Both the position numbers and the translations under genes were made by a program. DNA of 64,000 bases from NCBI RefSeq assembly GCF_014656375.1, contig NZ_BNCH01000005.1, positions 124,001-188,000 of the forward strand, written 5' to 3'. The DNA is from Aliiroseovarius zhejiangensis. GTDB taxonomy: Bacteria > Pseudomonadota > Alphaproteobacteria > Rhodobacterales > Rhodobacteraceae. Under the pieces are notes generated by a model. It had not been told where the DNA came from. It searched no databases and saw nothing but the letters and a program-made list of their open reading frames with translations. The stretch's first letter is position 1, and the number at the start of each line of letters is the position of its first letter. This document shows, piece by piece, positions 4,122-31,819 of the stretch.

Positions 4122-4137
4122 TTAAGGTTAAATTAAC
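4122..4137. promoter_or_regulatory. CtrA full-site motif TTAA-N7-TTAAC (no obvious target gene)
   Basis: TTAA, seven bases, TTAA, C in an AT-rich patch of otherwise GC-rich sequence matches the established CtrA consensus. Both flanking genes point into this gap, so the site is not in front of a known coding sequence. Binding is inferred from the motif only. Confidence 0.45.
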
Positions 4138-9970: not shown

Positions 9971-10299
9971 GCGCAGGTTTGGCCCTGCCGCCCGGTTGCA
10001 TCGCGCCAGCCCAAGAACCGTTCCCGCGAAAAGGTCAGAATCAGATCATTCCATTGCAACTGCTGCGCAATGCTTGCGGGGCAACCTGAAAGCGGCAGCA
10101 CCTCATGCCGGCCAAGTTCGCGGTCCAGCGCCGGCACGACGCCTTTGGGCGAACGTCCGAAGTCTATGCGCTTGTTCACCGGATCAACCTGTAGCCCGGC
10201 GGCATCCGGGCGAATGACCACCGCGCTGCGCGTCGGCGCTGGCGCCACGCAGGCGGTCAGTCCAACCATCATCACGACAGCACCAAGACACCGCATCAC
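9967..10299 (-). CDS. Small lipoprotein of unknown function
   Basis: A 110-residue protein with a type II signal: MMRCLGAVVMMVGLTAC, lipobox GLTAC with Cys17 as the lipidation site. The mature part holds no motif I recognise; two further cysteines (in SGCPAS and at the C-terminal TCA) could form a disulphide. Its start overlaps the regA stop by 4 bases, so it is cotranscribed behind regA, where Rhodobacter species carry hvrA instead. A redox role is therefore only a positional suggestion. Confidence 0.7.
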   Translation of the reverse strand: MMRCLGAVVMMVGLTACVAPAPTRSAVVIRPDAAGLQVDPVNKRIDFGRSPKGVVPALDRELGRHEVLPLSGCPASIAQQLQWNDLILTFSRERFLGWRDATGRQGQTCA

Positions 10300-10850
10300 T
10301 TCGGGCTGCGCTTGGCTAGGATGCGTTGCAGGGTGCGGCGGTGCATGTTCAGACGCCGCGCGGTTTCCGAGACATTGCGGTCACACAGTTCATAGACCCG
10401 CTGAATATGTTCCCACCGGACCCGGTCTGCCGACATAGGGTTTTCCGGCGGTGGTGGCATGGCGTCCGATTTCGCCAACAGCGCATTCATCACGTCATTT
10501 GCATCAGCGGGCTTCGACAGATAGTCATTCGCCCCGATTTTCACCGCCGAAACCGCCGTGGCAATCGCGCCGTAACCGGTCAGAACCACGATCCGGGCAT
10601 CGGGGCGCTTTTCGCGAATGGTTTCAACCACGTCCAGCCCGTTGCCATCCTCAAGCCGCAAGTCAACCACGGCATAGGCTGGCGGGCGAGCAGTGGCGAT
10701 GGCCTTGCCAGCCGCGACGGATCCGGCCGTTTCGGGTGCAAACCCGCGTTTCTCCATCGCCCGCGCCAGTCGGCGCAGGAACGGTTCGTCGTCATCGACA
10801 AGCAGCAGGGATGCGTCCTCACCGATCGCTTCAAGTTCCTGTGCCGTCAT
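10296..10850 (-). CDS. regA: Redox response regulator RegA/PrrA/ActR
   Basis: DNA-binding response regulator of the RegB-RegA global redox system, which controls photosynthesis, CO2 and nitrogen fixation and respiratory genes in alphaproteobacteria. The receiver domain (residues 14-125) has the acidic pocket LLVDDDEPF, phospho-acceptor Asp in AVVDLRLEDG, and the lysine in YLSKPAD. A proline linker (PPPPEN) leads to a Fis-type helix-turn-helix ending ETARRLNMHRRTLQRIL. The 184-residue length is exact for the family. It is followed by the lipoprotein gene and lies downstream of senC. Confidence 0.96.
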   Translation of the reverse strand: MTAQELEAIGEDASLLLVDDDEPFLRRLARAMEKRGFAPETAGSVAAGKAIATARPPAYAVVDLRLEDGNGLDVVETIREKRPDARIVVLTGYGAIATAVSAVKIGANDYLSKPADANDVMNALLAKSDAMPPPPENPMSADRVRWEHIQRVYELCDRNVSETARRLNMHRRTLQRILAKRSPK

Positions 10851-10933: not shown

Positions 10934-11563
10934 CTATTTCTCCGAGGCGTCGATGAAGCACCCCACCCGGTCGGCCATCTGTTCCGGCGTCTCGTCGCGT
11001 TTGAAGAAATCGGCAAACCCGGTGTCAGGGAACATCAGATAGGTGAAGGTGGAATGATCCATCAGGTAATAATCTTCCTGCCCTTCTTCGGGTTCCTGCT
11101 TGCGGTAATAGGTTTTATAGGCCTGGCTGGCGGCTTTCACCTGCTCAGGCGTGCCGGTCAGCCCGATCATATCCTCGTGCATATAGCTGGTGAAATCGGC
11201 CAGATGCTCGGGCGTGTCGCGCTCGGGGTCGATCGAGATGAACGCCGACTGAATATCATAGCCGCGATCCTGCAACAGGCGCATCGCCTCGGCGTTGCGC
11301 GCATTGTCCAGCGGGCAGACATCCGGGCAGAACGTATAACCGAAATAGACCAGGGTCGGCTTTGTGATCACATCCTTGTCGGTCACAAGCTTGCCAGTTT
11401 CATCGGTCAGCTCGAACGGGCCACCGATAGAGGCGACCCCGGTGCCCACCGCGCCGGCCCGACACTGGGCAAACTTGTCGACCTCGCCGGTGGTGACATA
11501 CCAGGTCACACCCACAAGCGCGGCGATGGCCACGGCCCCGGTTACGGCATAAATTCGCATCAT
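10934..11563 (-). CDS. senC: SCO1/SenC/PrrC family copper chaperone
   Basis: Membrane-anchored thioredoxin-fold protein for copper delivery to cytochrome oxidase and, in Rhodobacter, signalling to RegB. One N-terminal membrane segment (residues 4-24), then the copper site CPDVCP (about residue 79) and the conserved His in YLMDHST. 209 residues, normal. Alternative starts are the two adjacent ATGs; AGGAGAG stands just before. It lies between regA and divergent regB, the arrangement known from Rhodobacter. Confidence 0.95.
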   Translation of the reverse strand: MMRIYAVTGAVAIAALVGVTWYVTTGEVDKFAQCRAGAVGTGVASIGGPFELTDETGKLVTDKDVITKPTLVYFGYTFCPDVCPLDNARNAEAMRLLQDRGYDIQSAFISIDPERDTPEHLADFTSYMHEDMIGLTGTPEQVKAASQAYKTYYRKQEPEEGQEDYYLMDHSTFTYLMFPDTGFADFFKRDETPEQMADRVGCFIDASEK

Positions 11564-11655: not shown

Positions 11656-13083
11656 ATGGATCACATGAGCGAGAACAGCACAGGCCCCCTGACCCACCGC
11701 ATGTTTCAAGGGGACGGAGAGATCCTGCCGGGCCGCTGGGTGCGCCTGCGAACGTTGGTCGTGCTGCGCTGGGCGGCGATCTTCGGTCAGATCGCGGCCA
11801 TCATCGTGTCGATTTACGTGTTCTCGCTGCAAATCCCACTGGGTCTGGCGGCGGTGGCGATCGGCCTGGCCGTGATTGCCAATCTGGTCTCGCTGACCGT
11901 GTTTCCCAAGAACGCCCGCCTGAACGAACGGGACGCCACAGGTATGCTTCTGTTCGACACGCTGCAACTGGCCTTCATGGTGTATCTGGCGGGCGGGCTT
12001 CACAACCCGTTTATGGTGCTGATCGTGGCTCCTGTCACCGTGGCCGCAACCGCGCTGTCGACCCGCGCGACCGTGATTGTCGGCAGCGTCGCCATCGCCG
12101 CCACCACGGCGGTCGCGGATTTCAACATTCCGCTGCACACACGCGGCGGCACGGTGGTGCTGATGCCCGATCTTTTCGTGTTTGGCATCTGGGTCGCCGT
12201 GGTGACCTCGATCGGCTTTGTTGGTCTCTATACCCGCAGAATTTCATCTGAAATGCGGTCGATGTCCGAGGCCCTTCTGGCCACGCAAATGGCCCTGTCG
12301 CGCGAACAGAAACTGACGGATCTTGGCGGTGTCGTGGCCGCCGCCGCCCATGAACTTGGCACGCCGCTGGCCACCATCAAGCTGGTTGCATCCGAGATGG
12401 TGGACGAACTGGGCGATCAGACCGAGCTGCGCGAAGACGCGGCCCTGATCGGACAACAGGCCGACCGTTGTCGCGATATTCTTCAGTCGATGGGTCGGGC
12501 GGGCAAGGACGACATGCTGATGAAAAGCGTGCCACTTGTGACCTTGGTCGAAGAAGCCGCCGAGCCGCATGTCAACCGGGGCAAAACACTGGAAGTCGCG
12601 GTCATGTCTCAGTTGAACGACCCGGCGGATGAACCCGTCGTTGCGCGCCGTCCCGAAATCATTCACGGCCTGCGCAACCTGATTCAGAACGCGGTGGATT
12701 TCGCCACCACCACGGTCTGGATCGAAATCGACTGGACCCACGACGAGATCAAGTTACGGATCATTGACGACGGGCGCGGGTATTCTCCGCAGGTGATCGG
12801 CTGGATCGGCGATCCTTTCATTCGCGGCAAGAAGCCCGCCCAGGACAAGGGTCAGCGCCGGGAATACAAAGGTATGGGGCTGGGCCTGTTCATCGCCAAG
12901 ACTCTGCTGGAGCGCACCGGCGCAAAGCTGAGCTTTGCCAACGGCACCGAACCCTATACAGGCCGGCCGCATCCGCGCGAAAAATCCGGCGCCATCGCCC
13001 AGGTGGTCTGGCCCCGCGACACGGACGGAATCGAATACCGACCAACCCAGGGCGGGTTGGGCGAAAACATCCCCTTCGGCTGA
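11656..13083 (+). CDS. regB: Sensor histidine kinase RegB/PrrB
   Basis: Membrane redox sensor kinase that phosphorylates RegA. About six membrane segments fill residues 25-190; the quinone-sensing motif appears as GGLHNPF (about residue 118). The H-box is AAAHELGTPLATIKL, and the redox-active cysteine is present in QADRCRDI. The N box (NLIQNAVDFA) and G boxes (DDGRGY, GMGLGLF) complete the ATPase domain. A second ATG nine bases downstream is an equally possible start. It is divergent from senC-regA with about 90 bp between them. Confidence 0.96.
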   Translation: MDHMSENSTGPLTHRMFQGDGEILPGRWVRLRTLVVLRWAAIFGQIAAIIVSIYVFSLQIPLGLAAVAIGLAVIANLVSLTVFPKNARLNERDATGMLLFDTLQLAFMVYLAGGLHNPFMVLIVAPVTVAATALSTRATVIVGSVAIAATTAVADFNIPLHTRGGTVVLMPDLFVFGIWVAVVTSIGFVGLYTRRISSEMRSMSEALLATQMALSREQKLTDLGGVVAAAAHELGTPLATIKLVASEMVDELGDQTELREDAALIGQQADRCRDILQSMGRAGKDDMLMKSVPLVTLVEEAAEPHVNRGKTLEVAVMSQLNDPADEPVVARRPEIIHGLRNLIQNAVDFATTTVWIEIDWTHDEIKLRIIDDGRGYSPQVIGWIGDPFIRGKKPAQDKGQRREYKGMGLGLFIAKTLLERTGAKLSFANGTEPYTGRPHPREKSGAIAQVVWPRDTDGIEYRPTQGGLGENIPFG

Positions 13084-13094
13084 ATGCGCTCAGG

Positions 13095-13110
13095 TTAAAA
13101 CTTCATTAAC
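13095..13110. promoter_or_regulatory. CtrA full-site motif TTAA-N7-TTAAC upstream of the DivL-like gene
   Basis: An exact match to the CtrA consensus lies in the short regB to divL-like gap, about 75-90 bases before the chosen start. It implies that the gene has its own CtrA-controlled promoter rather than relying only on read-through from regB. Inference from motif. Confidence 0.6.
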
Positions 13111-13182
13111 CAACCCGCGACTAGGGTGTTCCTCACTGCCGATGGCGGCGCAATGGGTGCGCCAGGGCGGAAAGGGGCAAAG

Positions 13183-14766
13183 ATGGTCAACACTCTGCTT
13201 ATTATCGGGATCGTCCTGGTCGCATTCCTGACCGCGCTTGTCGCGCTTCTAGCTCTGTCGTGGGTGGAAACAAGGCGGCGCAAAAGCCTGCGTGACGATG
13301 CAGCGGCCAGCGATGGGCAACTGGTGTTCCTGTTCGACGATGAAACCCTGTGCGACGCTACACCGACCGCACGGCAAATGATGCTGGCCGGTCGCCCTGC
13401 CGGGCCTGAATCCGATTGGCAACGGTTCGCACAGCTTCTGCACAACCGGTTTCCCGACCTGACCCGGCATATGGGCGATCTGGCCGATCTTGGAACGCTG
13501 TCGCTGACATCGACCGACGGCAGCAACCGGATCATCGCAGAATGGCGGGACGGGCTGGCACGCATCGAACTGATCGACCGCGAAAGTCATGCCCCAACAA
13601 AAGCCATGGACCGGCTGAGCTTTGACGCAATGCAGCACGAGTTGGAAAGCCTGCGCGCCACATCCGAGCATCTGCCCCTGATGGTCTGGCGCGAGGATGC
13701 AGGCGGCGCCATCACCTGGGCCAACAAATCCTATCTGGACCTTGCCGAACGGATGACCGAACCCGATGACCTGGCCACCTGGCCGCCGCTGAAGATGTTT
13801 CAGCAAGGCCAATTTAAGGACGCGCAGGATCTGAAGCAACCGGGCCGCGTCGCAATCCAGTTTCCCGGCGATGATACCCGGCATTGGTTTGACCTGCACG
13901 AGGCCGAGTTGGGCAATGATAGGCTCTATACGGCCGTTCCCGCAGACCGGATCGTCCAGGCCGAGACCTCGCGAAACGAGTTCATCACCACCCTGACCAA
14001 GACCTTCGCGCATCTGCCCATCGGGCTTGCGATATTCGACCGCAAACGGCAATTGACGCTTTTCAACCCGGCCCTGACCGATCTGGTGGCATTGCCGGTC
14101 GACTTTCTGGTCGGGCGCCCCACCCTGTCAGGGTTTCTGGACCGACTGCGCGAAAAACGCATGATGCCCGAACCGAAAGACTATATTTCGTGGCGCCAGC
14201 AGATGTCCGACCTTGAGGCAGCGGCGGTCAACGGAACTTACGAGGAAACATGGGCGCTGCCCACCGGGCAGACCTACCGCGTGACCGGACGCCCCCATCC
14301 CGATGGGGCCGTCGCCTTCCTGTTCGAAGACATCAGCTCGGAAATTTCCCTGACCCGCCGCTTCCGGGCCGAGCTTGAAATGGGCCAGGCCGCCCTGGAC
14401 GGGATGGATCATGCCATCGCGATCTTCAACGCCGGGGGCGTCCTGGCGATGTCAAACAAGGCCTACAGCACCCTTTGGCAGAACGATCCGTCTGTCACAT
14501 TGGGTGACATCAACCTGGGCGACGCTGTCAAAACATGGCGCGCGGCCTGTGGGGACACGCCTTTGTGGCAGTCGCTGAAAGAATTCATCGCCACAAGCGG
14601 CGAGCGATCCGAGTGGCACCAACCTGTGGCACTGTCGGACGGGCGCCAGCTGACCTGCTTTGTCACGCCGATGATGCGCGGGGCAACCATGGTGCGTTTC
14701 GCCGCCTCTGCGACCGAAACCCTGCCCATCGTGAACCGCGACAGGTTCGTGACCGCAAACGCGTGA
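13183..14766 (+). CDS. divL: Membrane PAS-domain protein, DivL-like (no kinase domain)
   Basis: A 527-residue protein with one N-terminal membrane helix (residues 1-26) and three PAS-like units, about 155-235, 270-390 (AHLPIGLAIFDRKRQLT, FLFEDISSEISLTRRFR) and 405-515 (GMDHAIAIFNAGG). There is no histidine-kinase H-box or ATPase domain. The position immediately before tsaE-amgK-murU-addB is where Caulobacter has divL, and R. capsulatus DivL is described as a PAS-domain protein regulating CckA-ChpT-CtrA. The start at 13183 was chosen because it opens into the membrane helix behind AAGGGG; an ORF extends to 13126. Confidence 0.72.
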   Translation: MVNTLLIIGIVLVAFLTALVALLALSWVETRRRKSLRDDAAASDGQLVFLFDDETLCDATPTARQMMLAGRPAGPESDWQRFAQLLHNRFPDLTRHMGDLADLGTLSLTSTDGSNRIIAEWRDGLARIELIDRESHAPTKAMDRLSFDAMQHELESLRATSEHLPLMVWREDAGGAITWANKSYLDLAERMTEPDDLATWPPLKMFQQGQFKDAQDLKQPGRVAIQFPGDDTRHWFDLHEAELGNDRLYTAVPADRIVQAETSRNEFITTLTKTFAHLPIGLAIFDRKRQLTLFNPALTDLVALPVDFLVGRPTLSGFLDRLREKRMMPEPKDYISWRQQMSDLEAAAVNGTYEETWALPTGQTYRVTGRPHPDGAVAFLFEDISSEISLTRRFRAELEMGQAALDGMDHAIAIFNAGGVLAMSNKAYSTLWQNDPSVTLGDINLGDAVKTWRAACGDTPLWQSLKEFIATSGERSEWHQPVALSDGRQLTCFVTPMMRGATMVRFAASATETLPIVNRDRFVTANA

Positions 14767-14807
14767 ACGGGCTTGCGTCACCCTGACAGAGGGATAAAAC
14801 TCCTGCC

Positions 14808-15305
14808 ATGTCGCAGGCGTTTTCTCACCAATTTCATTTCCCCTCACCGGATCACACCCGGCGATTTGCAGAGAATCTTTCGACCCGTCTTCGCAAAGGC
14901 GACGTGATCTTGCTGCAAGGCGGGATCGGCGCTGGCAAAACCCATTTCGCCCGGTCGCTGATTCAGGCATTGCAGGTTAGGACCGGCCAGATCGAAGATG
15001 TCCCATCCCCCACATTCACATTGGTCCAAACCTATGACCTTTCCCCGACCGAGGTCTGGCATGCCGATCTTTACCGGCTGACCCACCCGGACGAGGTTGA
15101 AGAGCTTGGTTTGACACAGGCCTTTCAGGAGGCCATCTGCCTTGTCGAATGGCCGGACCGGTTGGGCGACCTCTGGCCCGACAAGGCACTGCTTGTCTCT
15201 TTCACGCCGGTCGCCGAGGACGGGTGCGAGGACCATCGTGTGATCACATTCGAAGGTGATGCCGATACCTGGCGAAACCGTGTCCTGAAGTCTGTGCCCG
15301 CATGA
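14808..15305 (+). CDS. tsaE: tRNA threonylcarbamoyladenosine biosynthesis ATPase TsaE
   Basis: P-loop ATPase that supports the TsaB-TsaD complex in making t6A37 in tRNA. The Walker A is GGIGAGKTHFA (about residues 38-48), followed by the family motifs VPSPTFTLVQTY and HADLYRL, and WPDRLGDL. 165 residues, normal. Its stop overlaps the phosphotransferase start by 4 bases. It begins a run of overlapping genes through addA. Confidence 0.97.
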   Translation: MSQAFSHQFHFPSPDHTRRFAENLSTRLRKGDVILLQGGIGAGKTHFARSLIQALQVRTGQIEDVPSPTFTLVQTYDLSPTEVWHADLYRLTHPDEVEELGLTQAFQEAICLVEWPDRLGDLWPDKALLVSFTPVAEDGCEDHRVITFEGDADTWRNRVLKSVPA

Positions 15306-16315
15306 CTAAACGCGCGGATCAGATATCGCGGTTTCTGGCCAGTGCCGGTTGGCAATCTGCCACCATGTCGCCGATCACCGGCGATGCCTCGGCCCGGGTA
15401 TATCAGAGACTGTTTCACCCAAAAACACAACAAACCGCGATCCTGATGGACGCCTCGCCAGATCGCGCCGGTTCATCGGCGCCTTTCCTGGCAGTCGCCG
15501 AATATCTGAAACAGGCGGGTCTGTCGGCGCCGGTCGTGTTTGCACATGACATCGCGACCGGCTTTCTGCTGCTGGAGGATCTGGGCGACGATCTCTTCGC
15601 AAATGTGATCACAAACGATCCATCTCAGGAACGCCCGCTTTACGAAGCAGCCGTACATGTGATCTGCCATCTGCACGACCACCCCAATCCCGAGCTTCCA
15701 CCCCTTGGCCCGGCGCAAATGGCGCAAGCCACGGATCTGGCCTTCTTGCACTATCGGAAAACGCCGCGCGCGCAGCTAAGCGCCGACGCAGCCGAAGCGA
15801 TGGATGTGCTGCGGGATATGCTGGCGCGGCTGGATGATTTCAACAAGGTCTCGCTGCGTGATTATCATGCGGAAAACCTGATCTGGCTGCCCCAGCGCAG
15901 TGGCATCGCCCGCGTCGGACTGCTGGACTTTCAGGACGCGGTTCTGACCCATCCGGCCTATGACCTTATGTCGCTGATCCGGGATGCGCGGCGCGATGTC
16001 TCGCCTGCCATTGCCGACCACCTGATCACGATGTTCTGTCAGATCAATGGCCATGACGAAACCCGCTTCCGTGCCGAGGCAGCCCTGATCTCGGCCCAGC
16101 GCAACCTGCGGATTCTGGGCATCTTTGCCCGCCTGTCGCGCGTGATGGGCAAACCGCAATATGTCGATCTGATTCCACGGGTCTGGGCCAATTTGCAGAC
16201 CGATCTGTCCCACCCGTCGCTGTCGCGCTTGTCGGCGGCGCTAGGACCGCTGCTTCCCCCGCCAACTGAAGATTTCCTGCACCACCTGAGGACACCATGC
16301 CAGACGCCGTCATGA
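15302..16315 (+). CDS. amgK: Aminoglycoside-phosphotransferase-fold kinase, AmgK-like (N-acetylmuramate/GlcNAc kinase)
   Basis: A 337-residue kinase of the choline/aminoglycoside kinase fold: SGDAS-like N-lobe (ITGDASARVYQRL), catalytic loop LRDYHAENLIWL (about residue 187) and metal motif LLDFQDA. AmgK phosphorylates the anomeric carbon of MurNAc in peptidoglycan recycling. The assignment rests mainly on the directly overlapping nucleotidyltransferase downstream, the AmgK-MurU pair. It overlaps tsaE by 4 and murU by 19 bases. Confidence 0.8.
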   Translation: MTKRADQISRFLASAGWQSATMSPITGDASARVYQRLFHPKTQQTAILMDASPDRAGSSAPFLAVAEYLKQAGLSAPVVFAHDIATGFLLLEDLGDDLFANVITNDPSQERPLYEAAVHVICHLHDHPNPELPPLGPAQMAQATDLAFLHYRKTPRAQLSADAAEAMDVLRDMLARLDDFNKVSLRDYHAENLIWLPQRSGIARVGLLDFQDAVLTHPAYDLMSLIRDARRDVSPAIADHLITMFCQINGHDETRFRAEAALISAQRNLRILGIFARLSRVMGKPQYVDLIPRVWANLQTDLSHPSLSRLSAALGPLLPPPTEDFLHHLRTPCQTPS

Positions 16316-16989
16316 TTTTTGCCGCCGGGCTTGGCACGCGTATGGGCACGTTGACCCGGACGCTTCCAAAGCCACTGATCCCGGTTAACGGGAAGCCGTT
16401 AATTGACCACGCGCTGGCGCTGGTCGACGACAGTGCGATCGAGACTGTCGTTGTCAATCTGCACCACCTGGGCGATCAGATCGTCAATCACCTCGGCCAG
16501 CGCGATGTACGATATTCACGTGAAACGGATCAGCTTCTTGAAACCGGTGGTGGGTTGAAAAAGGCACTAAACCTTCTGAATAGCGATGCGGTGGTGACGT
16601 TGAATTCTGACGCGGTCTGGGCGGGGCCGAACCCGATAAAGGCATTGATGCAAGCATGGGATCCTGACCGAATGGACGCGCTCTTGATGCTGGTCACACC
16701 GAAAAATGCCATCGGCCACAAGGGCGAAGGCGATTTCATGATGGAAGCAAATGGCGCCCTGCGCCGGGGTGCAGGCCTGACCTATACCGGCTGTCAGATC
16801 ATCAAGACCCAGCCCGTCGCGTCGATTGCCGAAGACGTGTTTTCGCTCAACACCGTGTGGGACCAACTGTTGTCCAGAGGTCGCGTTTTCGGTCTGGAAC
16901 ACCAGGGGCGCTGGTGCGATGTTGGCCACCCCGAGGGGATCACCCTTGCCGAAACCATGCTAAGGGATACCAATGTTCGACCCAACTGA
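16297..16989 (+). CDS. murU: Nucleotidyltransferase, MurU-like (MurNAc-1-P uridylyltransferase)
   Basis: A 230-residue sugar-1-phosphate nucleotidyltransferase. The signature AAGLGTRM...LPKPLIPV occupies residues 8-28, with VTLNSDAVW as the metal Asp region and GRWCDVGHPEG near the end. With AmgK it would return MurNAc to UDP-MurNAc without de novo synthesis, a route known from Pseudomonas to lower fosfomycin sensitivity. A different sugar or nucleotide is possible. It overlaps addB by 17 bases. Confidence 0.8.
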   Translation: MPDAVMIFAAGLGTRMGTLTRTLPKPLIPVNGKPLIDHALALVDDSAIETVVVNLHHLGDQIVNHLGQRDVRYSRETDQLLETGGGLKKALNLLNSDAVVTLNSDAVWAGPNPIKALMQAWDPDRMDALLMLVTPKNAIGHKGEGDFMMEANGALRRGAGLTYTGCQIIKTQPVASIAEDVFSLNTVWDQLLSRGRVFGLEHQGRWCDVGHPEGITLAETMLRDTNVRPN

Positions 16990-29632: not shown

Positions 29633-30073
29633 ATGCGCAGATTTGGCAATCAGCGAGAGGCCGGGCGCAGATATGTGCTGCGACCGGGCGCCTATGCCAT
29701 TCTGATGCGGGGGCGGGATTTTCTGATCACCCATCAGGCCGCGCCGTTCAACGAATTTCAACTGCCTGGCGGGGGGATCGACCCCGGGGAATCGGCGATT
29801 GTCGCGCTGCACCGTGAGGTGCTTGAGGAAACAGGCTGGAAGATCGCCCAACCACGGCGCCTTGGCGCGTATCGGCGGTTCAGCTATATGCCGGAATACG
29901 ATCTGTGGGCCGAGAAGATCTGCCACATTTTCACTGCCCGACCCGCCCGCAGGATCAGCACCCCGCTGGAGCCGGATCACGACGCCATCTGGACAGACGC
30001 CGCAACCGCCCAGCGCCTTCTGTGCAATGCAGGCGATCGTCACTTCCTTCGCCGCTATCTGCGGTCTTGCTGA
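29633..30073 (+). CDS. Nudix hydrolase of unknown substrate
   Basis: A 146-residue single Nudix domain. The box is QLPGGGIDPGE...HREVLEETGW at about residues 42-66, with all three acidic metal ligands present. The substrate cannot be inferred. The start ATG follows AAAAGGTC; a longer frame exists upstream but lies inside hslO on the other strand. It overlaps the convergent RbaY-like gene by 19 bases. Confidence 0.88.
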   Translation: MRRFGNQREAGRRYVLRPGAYAILMRGRDFLITHQAAPFNEFQLPGGGIDPGESAIVALHREVLEETGWKIAQPRRLGAYRRFSYMPEYDLWAEKICHIFTARPARRISTPLEPDHDAIWTDAATAQRLLCNAGDRHFLRRYLRSC

Positions 30074-31353
30074 AAGGTCACCATGACACAGGACAGATCG
30101 TCACCCAGATCCTGACCGCCCGAATACGCATCCAGATCCCAGACCAGCGCATCAAACAGGGCCTCGTTCGTCAGCGCGCTGTTCTTACGCAGAAAGTCGG
30201 CGAACCCGGCTTCATCCAGCATGGCGCCACCGGGGCCAACGCATTCCGTAAAGCCGTCGGAATAGAAGATCAGCCGCTCGCCCGGTGACAAGGTCATTTG
30301 CTGCCTTTCGAACCGGGCGTCCTCGATCAGGCCGATGGGCATGCCGCCTGCACCGAAGAAGTCGGCATCGTTTTGCGGTGTCAGCCGTACCGCGTTCGGG
30401 TGCCCACATTGCGTCAGGTCGACCCCGCCGCTGGTCAGATCCAGATACCCGAACAACATGGTAAAATAGTGCTCGGACCGCAGATCGTTCAGCAGCAGCT
30501 TGTTCAATTCGTCGGCAACCATTTCGGGTGGACGGGGGCGATAATCGCCGTTCGGGCCTTGCTCCAACGCGATGTTATGGGTCGGCGAGCCGTCCGAGAA
30601 ATACGACGCCAGACGCGCAGTCAGCAGGGCCGACGCGATCCCGTGACCCGATACGTCAATGGAATAGAAGGCCAGCACGTCAGGTCCAGCCTCAAAAAAA
30701 CCGACAAGATCACCCCCGACATGGCCGCATGGCTTCAGCATCAATGACACCTCGGCCGTCCCGAAATCACGATATTTCTCACGCACTAGGGACTGCTGCA
30801 TCTTGCGCGCTTCGACCAGATCGCGGTCCAGCGAATTATACAGCGCCTGGATTTCGGCAAGGGTGGTGGTGACAAGCCGGTTCTTGTCCTGCAACTCCCG
30901 CTCCATCGACAGTATGCGGCCACCGGCATTGATACGTGCGCGCAGTTCGTCCGGGTTGACCGGCTTGGCAAGGAAGTCATCGGCGCCGACATCCAGACCC
31001 TGCGCGACCGCGCCCTTGTCGGTCTTGGACGTCAACAGAATGAAATACACATAGCCCGTACGTGGCAGGTCGCGAAACGCGGCGCACAGCTCCAACCCGT
31101 CCATCCCCGGCATCATCCAATCACTGAGGATCAGATCGAAGTGATTCCGCGTCAGAATCTCCAACGCCTCGTCACCGGTGCCCGCCTCGGTCACGTCATA
31201 CCCCTGGCGCGTCAGCGAAGACGTCAGAATACGCCGTTGTGCCCGACTGTCGTCAACCACCAAGATGCGTCGCACCGGATTGATCACCACTGCCTCAGGT
31301 GGGTCGTTCAACGACGGTTCGTCACTGTTTATATATGCATTAGCGGCGCTCAC
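30055..31353 (-). CDS. Receiver-SpoIIE/PP2C phosphatase, RbaY-like
   Basis: A 432-residue two-domain signalling protein. Residues 28-150 are a receiver (LVVDDSRAQ, phospho-acceptor in LSDWMMPGMDG, FLAKPVNP); residues 160-185 a coiled linker; residues 200-430 a PP2C-like phosphatase with YSIDVSGHG, FYSDGFTE and GDDLSCV metal aspartates. R. capsulatus RbaY, which dephosphorylates the anti-sigma antagonist RbaV, has this layout and influences gene transfer agent production. Start GTG. It is divergent from an Hpt gene with a shared CtrA site between them. Confidence 0.85.
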   Translation of the reverse strand: MSAANAYINSDEPSLNDPPEAVVINPVRRILVVDDSRAQRRILTSSLTRQGYDVTEAGTGDEALEILTRNHFDLILSDWMMPGMDGLELCAAFRDLPRTGYVYFILLTSKTDKGAVAQGLDVGADDFLAKPVNPDELRARINAGGRILSMERELQDKNRLVTTTLAEIQALYNSLDRDLVEARKMQQSLVREKYRDFGTAEVSLMLKPCGHVGGDLVGFFEAGPDVLAFYSIDVSGHGIASALLTARLASYFSDGSPTHNIALEQGPNGDYRPRPPEMVADELNKLLLNDLRSEHYFTMLFGYLDLTSGGVDLTQCGHPNAVRLTPQNDADFFGAGGMPIGLIEDARFERQQMTLSPGERLIFYSDGFTECVGPGGAMLDEAGFADFLRKNSALTNEALFDALVWDLDAYSGGQDLGDDLSCVMVTFQQDRR

Positions 31354-31406: not shown

Positions 31407-31422
31407 TTAACAGCGCTTTAAC
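31407..31422. promoter_or_regulatory. CtrA full-site motif TTAA-N7-TTAAC in divergent RbaY-like / Hpt promoter
   Basis: TTAA CAGCGCT TTAA C lies about 55 bases before the phosphatase start (minus strand) and about 85 bases before the Hpt start (plus strand). The surrounding 150 bp are AT-richer than the coding regions and contain further TTAA half-sites. The motif is exact; binding is inferred. Confidence 0.6.
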
Positions 31423-31504
31423 GCGAAAATTTTAAGTGATCTTCGCAGCTTACCGCTTGTTAACTGTCTGCGCATAAACTGACCCGAAGTATGAGGAGGT
31501 CGTG

Positions 31505-31819
31505 ATGATCAACTGGACGCGCGTGAACGAGTTGAAGGCCGAGATCGGCGAGGAGGATTTCGCCGAGGTGGCCGAGCTGTTTCTGGAAGAGGTAGAAGAG
31601 GTTCTTGGCCGTCTGAAATCCGCGCCGAAGCCCGATTTATTCGAACAAGACATGCATTTTCTGAAAAGCTCGTCATTGAATCTGGGGTTTGACCGGCTGT
31701 CCAAACTGTGTGGCGAAGGCGAACGGGAAGCCGCCGCCGGCAACTTCGACGCCGTTCCGCTGACCCCGGTGTTTCAAGCCTATGATGCCTCGAAACAGGC
31801 GTTTCTGAACGGTGGCTAA
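31505..31819 (+). CDS. Stand-alone histidine phosphotransfer (Hpt) protein
   Basis: A 104-residue Hpt domain. The phosphorylated His is in DMHFLKSSSLNLGF, the family's HxLKGxS pattern with Ser for Gly. It has no kinase or receiver fused to it, so it must shuttle phosphate between separate proteins; the adjacent divergent receiver-phosphatase is the obvious partner by position. A GTG directly before the ATG also gives an open start; GAGGAGG spacing favours the ATG. It overlaps the convergent ilvA stop by 4 bases. Confidence 0.85.
   Translation: MINWTRVNELKAEIGEEDFAEVAELFLEEVEEVLGRLKSAPKPDLFEQDMHFLKSSSLNLGFDRLSKLCGEGEREAAAGNFDAVPLTPVFQAYDASKQAFLNGG

Follow-up and report, generated by a model that had tools for sequence, protein, structure and literature searches.

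What drives the divL-like gene that follows regB in Aliiroseovarius zhejiangensis, and does its product feed back on its own regulator? In the stretch of 64,000 nucleotides analysed here (the window), the gap between the two genes holds a sequence of the type recognized by CtrA. We put the probability at about 85% that this sequence belongs to a CtrA-activated divL promoter and that the gene product, acting through CckA, provides positive feedback. The argument depends on the identity of the gene, on the conservation and placement of the box, and on what has been reported for CtrA and divL in related bacteria.

The gene had been assigned to the divL slot ahead of tsaE, amgK and murU, and its surroundings agree with this: a TsaE gene, an APH-type kinase gene and a nucleotidyltransferase gene lie downstream and regB lies upstream (Table 1). 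The upstream neighbor is well kept, with regB on the same strand at 125 of 130 ortholog loci. A tsaE gene also stands beside the long form of divL, which carries a kinase part, at two of the seven such loci inspected, as it does beside divL in the window.

Table 1. Features at the regB–divL locus; coordinates are those of the window.
Feature	Coordinates	Strand	Basis
regA	10296..10850	-	NF033791, 320.6 bits
senC	10934..11563	-	SCO1-SenC (Pfam)
regB, redox sensor kinase, directly upstream of divL	11656..13083	+	NF045988, 697.5 bits
CtrA-type box GGTTAA-N7-TTAACC (core 13095-13110)	13093..13111	.	motif scan and conservation
-10-like hexamer TAGGGT, 27 bases from box start	13122..13127	+	conserved among 11 Aliiroseovarius sequences; putative -10 role
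Probable ribosome-binding sequence before ATG	13169..13177	+	read from sequence; putative
Short divL, membrane-anchored PAS protein, 527 aa, no kinase domain	13183..14766	+	Pfam, model, profile
N-terminal helix with membrane segment, residues 4-41	13192..13305	+	model; hydropathy peak from residue 5
PAS-like fold 1, residues 47-132	13321..13578	+	model secondary structure; boundaries read by eye
PAS fold 2, residues 167-253	13681..13941	+	PAS_8 at 157-189 (Pfam); model
PAS fold 3, residues 280-383	14020..14331	+	PAS_7 at 276-388 (Pfam); ortholog profile; model
PAS-like fold 4, residues 411-508	14413..14706	+	model; boundaries read by eye
tsaE	14808..15305	+	TsaE (Pfam)
amgK-like kinase (name from first-pass annotation)	15302..16315	+	APH family (Pfam)
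murU-like nucleotidyltransferase (name from first-pass annotation)	16297..16989	+	NTP_transf_3 (Pfam)

The first-pass annotation described the product as a 527-residue membrane PAS protein without a kinase domain, a description borne out by Pfam, hydropathy and a structural model. The Pfam search returned PAS_7 and PAS_8 and no kinase domain, and NCBIfam gave one weak, sub-cut-off match to a kinase model, located within the PAS part of the protein. The AlphaFold2 model (mean pLDDT 86.0, pTM 0.44) consists of a long N-terminal helix and four alpha/beta units joined by helices, which we read as PAS folds, and contains no kinase-type core; given the low pTM, the arrangement of the domains is not fixed. 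Foldseek matches to multi-PAS proteins such as PpsR, DosP and FixL, all with low TM-scores, support the PAS folds and nothing beyond them. The hydrophobic N-terminal segment is present in 130/130 orthologs, 13 of which have a further, later segment. An in-frame GTG at 13126 would extend the protein to 546 residues, but the ATG equivalent to 13183 is shared by all 11 aligned Aliiroseovarius sequences (of 12 with a match, one partial being left out), making the GTG an unlikely start. The closest named relatives among the matches listed are those of Aliiroseovarius sp. S1339 and A. sediminis, at 78 percent.

Is this protein a DivL? Of 240 genomes of the class, 143 contain a match with E no higher than 1e-10 to a profile (A1) built from 31 orthologs. 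Outside the family, the listed matches lie mostly in open frames of 600–1000 residues, and long DivL proteins are matched with E-values as low as 2.6e-65. All five long proteins tested have PAS_7, HisKA and HATPase domains, and the two that were searched against the PDB both found 4q20, Sensor protein DivL from Caulobacter, as their best match (E 1.7e-40 and 2.2e-50). The acceptor tyrosine is present at 14 of the 14 long-DivL loci where its pattern matched; the other 13 of the 27 scanned gave no match, probably because most of these stretches end soon after the PAS match. Against PDB sequences, profile A1 itself yields one weak PAS match, 6zj8 (E 3.1e-4). The window protein is thus homologous to full-length DivL over the PAS region, at an identity of 27–30 percent. 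It contains no kinase-like part with a tyrosine acceptor, and for this reason we file it as a short DivL only, the form described in PMC9430884 and PMC2877005 as having PAS domains and no kinase domain; it has the membrane segment as well. Because profile A1 retrieves the long proteins, and two of these match Caulobacter DivL best, the gene is by sequence relationship a short divL. The DivL likeness suggested earlier is upheld by the profile search, and an unrelated PAS protein is ruled out by the same matches.

The box itself, TTAAAACTTCATTAAC, is the exact TTAA-N7-TTAAC core found by a motif scan of the window at 13095-13110, just where it had first been reported, in the context GGTTAA-AACTTCA-TTAACC (13093-13111). 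Since the sequence reads GGTTAA-N7-TTAACC, the motif is also matched on the minus strand, at 13094-13109. The perfect palindrome belongs to the window sequence: its first base differs in most other aligned Aliiroseovarius sequences, and many loci of the family set match the box on one strand only. The box starts 12 bases beyond the last base of regB (13083). It had been placed 75–90 bases before the gene; this holds for the box start, 88 bases before the ATG, and not for the box end, which is separated from the ATG by 72 bases. The case against chance from one genome alone is weak. The exact motif has 14 strand-matches in the 3.4-Mb genome, as against 11 for the reversed pattern; the window has three exact places, and with one mismatch allowed it has seven matches compared with 1.62 in shuffles, 1 of 100 of which reached seven. 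Another of the three exact places, at 4122-4137, lies in a gap between convergent genes, past the stop of a DUF2853 gene, and is probably not a promoter site.

It is conservation across genera, and not the single genome, that settles the question of chance. Protein matches were obtained in 181 of 198 genera of the family. The main count comprises 130 of these, taken in order of score and leaving aside hits that cover only part of the query; 20 genera with lower-scoring or partial matches were counted apart, and 31 were left out. Within 200 bp upstream of the gene, the exact box occurs on either strand in 109 of the 130 genera and on the plus strand in 103; with up to one mismatch, the plus-strand box occurs in 126, which answers the check for motif conservation proposed in the first-pass annotation. 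In 38 bins of 100 bp from -1400 to +2400, the exact box is confined to -100..0 (107 genomes) and -200..-100 (two genomes), with none in the other 36 bins, and the plus-strand boxes start at a median of 65 bp before the start codon. Across the same 130 genera, the half-sites at any other spacer length from 0 to 15 reach a count of at most 4, the reversed pattern a count of 1, and 50 dinucleotide shuffles a mean of 0.02 and a maximum of 1, against the 103 exact plus-strand boxes observed. The 20 additional genera comprise 14 with an exact box, four with one mismatch, one without a box and one without upstream DNA. Among 80 named loci, the best 80 of 552 confirmed, 76 have an exact box and four a box with one mismatch; these overlap with the main genomes and were not added to the count. 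The four genera without a plus-strand box within one mismatch (loci L028, L085, L108 and L124) all have CtrA, and L085 has a box on the minus strand. The conservation of the box across 130 genera is far beyond chance; the site is real and strongly kept in the family, and a chance match is ruled out by the shuffles, the 126 genera and the named loci alike.

How might the box act? In the alignment of 11 Aliiroseovarius sequences, the most conserved blocks of the regB–divL gap are the box and a TAGGGT-like hexamer. At an offset of +27 or +28 from the box, chosen after inspection of the aligned columns of box-bearing loci, the pattern A-N3-T is found at 103 of 126 loci; other offsets average 11.5 loci and reach 25 at most. 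The strict form TANNNT is found at that offset at 16 of the 126 loci only, which means that conservation of the hexamer is loose beyond the genus. If TAGGGT serves as the -10 element, the box covers the -35 region. In C. crescentus, the CtrA motif lies near -35 in CtrA-activated promoters (PMC9430884), and the window box would occupy the same position, by its spacing from the putative -10. A scan for the sigma-70 consensus over 12900-13300 found no promoter. Iterative motif searching of the sequence beyond the box scored 4.9, as against 4.1–4.3 in shuffles, with scattered positions, and was unconvincing; the fixed-offset count served in its place. We also considered an RNA element at the locus and rejected it, as Rfam gave no match at the gathering score within 12900-14900.

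The circuit is not new. The first-pass annotation took a feedback on DivL to be undescribed in this group, a claim overturned by four papers that already describe a CtrA–divL link (PMC2877005, PMC4046655, PMC12363192 and PMC4158056): the circuit was predicted in 2010 and has been partly tested since. For cluster B Rhodobacterales, Brilli et al. (2010; PMC2877005) predicted that CtrA controls cckA and divL; they also remarked on the kinase-less DivL and on a theoretical feedback. In D. shibae, CtrA sites have been reported in the promoters of ctrA, cckA, divL and clpP, with a consensus that matches the box sequence and with lower divL expression in ctrA, cckA and chpT mutants (PMC4046655, 2014); the portions available of a later study list D. 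shibae CtrA sites for ctrA, cckA and others and do not name divL among them (PMC6473078, 2019). Loss of ctrA or cckA represses divL1 in P. inhibens (PMC12363192). In R. capsulatus, rcc00042 is among the genes affected by CtrA loss, the trend of its module being a reduction in ctrA and gtaI mutants and not in cckA mutants (PMC4158056), so that phosphorylation may not be needed there. Several genomes, including that of D. shibae, have two genes called divL (PMC8116508 and PMC6473078), and the copy measured in each of these studies is presumed to be the ortholog of the window gene.

Based on these reports, R. capsulatus rcc00042, and probably D. shibae Dshi_3433 too, resembles the window gene in encoding a PAS protein without a pseudo-kinase, and is reported as CtrA-affected. 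One passage of PMC6473078 equates Dshi_3346 with R. capsulatus divL and describes Dshi_3433 as having PAS domains only. A published 20-base rcc00042 primer (PMC9143464) matches exactly inside one divL ortholog (L166), and the same primer hit one of 394 family genomes; two other primer sequences hit none of 244 loci, and the R. capsulatus divL sequence itself was not found. Translated by eye, two primers read PTLYAF and MTELEQ, and ortholog L042 reads PTLYAF...MTELE. A short DivL is a common trait of Rhodobacterales (PMC9430884), and, as far as the published descriptions and primers go, we found no difference in kind between the R. capsulatus and D. shibae proteins and that of the window.

Compared with the loop proposed for cluster B Rhodobacterales (PMC2877005), the window presents the same circuit with the same kinase-less DivL, and the cckA-like gene of the host also has a box. 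The earlier work predicted sites by score in the genomes of its day, whereas the present count covers 130 genera with controls for spacing, position and shuffling; the literature searched, as far as its text was available, gave no family-wide count of the divL box. With the family count and the promoter layout, the 2010 prediction becomes a defined site, open to test by a few base changes in a culturable relative. Caulobacter DivL shares a homologous PAS region with the window protein, the two being linked via the long proteins whose kinase part is closest to 4q20, but it has the kinase-like part that the window protein lacks. Before the long divL of other families the box is exact at two of 27 loci and within one mismatch at seven of 27. 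These 27 were taken in score order, with some passed over, from 140 matches outside the family, and about 700 bases were scanned per locus as opposed to 200 in the main count, which favors finding a box. The conserved box is therefore mainly a feature of short DivL, in agreement with PMC2877005 on cluster B.

The host genome encodes CtrA (NF045991, 432.6 bits, cut-off 350) and a cckA-like hybrid kinase, matched best in the PDB by 5idj and then by CckA 5idm. An exact box lies 49–64 bases upstream of the cckA-like gene (2669-2684 of locus L226); ahead of ctrA, the best site deviates from the motif at one position. The host chpT (1456-2098 of locus L131, contig C2, minus strand) is broken into two reading frames around a run of identical bases, whereas in 12 of 12 other genomes of the genus a single match, in one open frame, covers most of the chpT model. 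The break may stem from misassembly or be specific to the strain.

Absence of CtrA and absence of DivL tend to coincide. Over 198 genera, 12 lack both, three lack CtrA only, six lack DivL only and 177 have both (Fisher p 1.4e-12, in a test that ignores relatedness and after two hand reclassifications); the raw counts, in the same order, were 11, 5, 6 and 176 (p 1.3e-10). The reclassified genomes are G109, moved to no DivL on account of a weak, generic match only, and G006, moved to CtrA present because of a C-terminal fragment; G069, with a 39-residue DivL fragment, was kept as having no DivL. Several of the single losses fall in incomplete genomes. One genome rated 99 percent complete (G184; locus L241, about 1290-1515) keeps divL and the box and has no CtrA match over the cut-off; its divL contains some 200 inserted bases, with inverted ends as judged by eye, through which the reading frame stays open. 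Another genome of the family (G008; loci L238 and L243) has a weak DivL match within a 772-residue open frame and no CtrA match over the cut-off.

In conjunction with the published work, we propose the following model. CtrA would bind the TTAA-N7-TTAAC box over the -35 region, as placed by its spacing from the -10-like element, and would activate a promoter that belongs to divL itself, downstream of regB. DivL, with its string of PAS folds anchored in the membrane and no pseudo-kinase, may then act on CckA and favor its kinase activity, so that phosphate would flow from CckA to ChpT and on to CtrA. As CtrA would in this way raise its own activator, the feedback would be positive. By analogy with relatives, the model draws on the lower divL expression in ctrA mutants and on R. 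capsulatus DivL, which is reported to promote CtrA phosphorylation by enhancing CckA kinase activity (PMC9143464, citing Westbye 2018). In the host organism, CtrA binding, activation and the positive sign of the loop are what the model predicts. Motility and gene transfer agents are among the traits that CtrA governs in these bacteria, and a widely conserved positive DivL loop would go some way toward explaining a switch-like output of the relay.

Could divL instead be transcribed mainly by read-through from regB, or be set by oxygen and redox regulators, with the box secondary? Since 12900-13300 contains neither a terminator-like site nor a sigma-70 consensus promoter, read-through is possible, and regB is nearly always upstream on the same strand. 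Redox control is suggested by the report that FnrL binds beside divL in R. capsulatus and that divL transcript levels are raised in dnrD and dnrF mutants of D. shibae (PMC7232146). Against both, no part of the gap is better conserved in the genus than the box and the -10-like element, and loss of CtrA relay genes leaves R. capsulatus regB transcripts unchanged (PMC7232146), whereas rcc00042 is affected by CtrA. On balance, we regard this arrangement as distinctly unlikely.

Less probable still is that CtrA binds the box and represses divL, giving negative feedback. A box over -35 can also block polymerase. There is a precedent for a negative loop in osp of R. sphaeroides, another CtrA-controlled gene: as in the window, a CtrA site precedes a gene for a CckA modulator, but Osp inhibits CckA (PMC9430884), whereas DivL is reported to enhance its kinase activity (PMC9143464). 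Repression is difficult to reconcile with the fall of divL transcripts in ctrA mutants of D. shibae and P. inhibens and of the rcc00042 module in R. capsulatus, or with the CtrA-activated promoters of C. crescentus that carry the motif near -35 (PMC9430884). Use of the box by another DNA-binding protein is very improbable: a Dnr/Fnr site has a TTAAC half in common with the CtrA motif (PMC7232146), but the box is the CtrA consensus of PMC4046655, its spacer is 7 in 103 genera and any other length in at most four, and CtrA and DivL tend to be lost together. That an unrelated PAS protein happens to follow a chance box is scarcely credible, for although the identity to long DivL is low and the motif is not enriched in the single genome, the profile matches, the tsaE neighbors of long divL and the box kept in 126 genera all speak against it.

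One may speculate further on the origin and timing of the loop, though we consider the following joint reading rather doubtful. The box may have become fixed at divL in the lineage where DivL lost its pseudo-kinase, and transcriptional feedback through the amount of DivL would then have taken the place of the input from DivK that was lost. In part of the family at least, CtrA may also drive divL independently of CckA; accumulating DivL would then time the passage of CtrA from the unphosphorylated form, in which gene transfer agents are produced, to the phosphorylated form, in which they are released. The suggestion is based on the exact box in 109 of 130 short-DivL genera as against two of 27 long-DivL loci, on the R. 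capsulatus module that falls in ctrA and not in cckA mutants (PMC4158056), and on the report that CtrA phosphorylation sets the phases of gene transfer agent production and release (PMC9143464).

Exact boxes also occur elsewhere in the host. The third exact place in the window, 31407-31422, lies between divergent genes for a receiver–SpoIIE protein (30055-31353, minus strand) and an Hpt protein (31502-31819, plus strand); D. shibae has a similar pair, Dshi_3485 and Dshi_3484, and a CtrA site is listed for Dshi_3484 (PMC6473078). The genes beside the remaining exact boxes (loci L228-L230) belong to no informative family except for RTX repeats. Two further boxes lie upstream of a gene for a glycosyltransferase with an MshEN domain (2600-2616 of L227) and of a gene for a UDP-sugar dehydrogenase (2708-2723 of L231), possibly placing surface polysaccharide under CtrA control.
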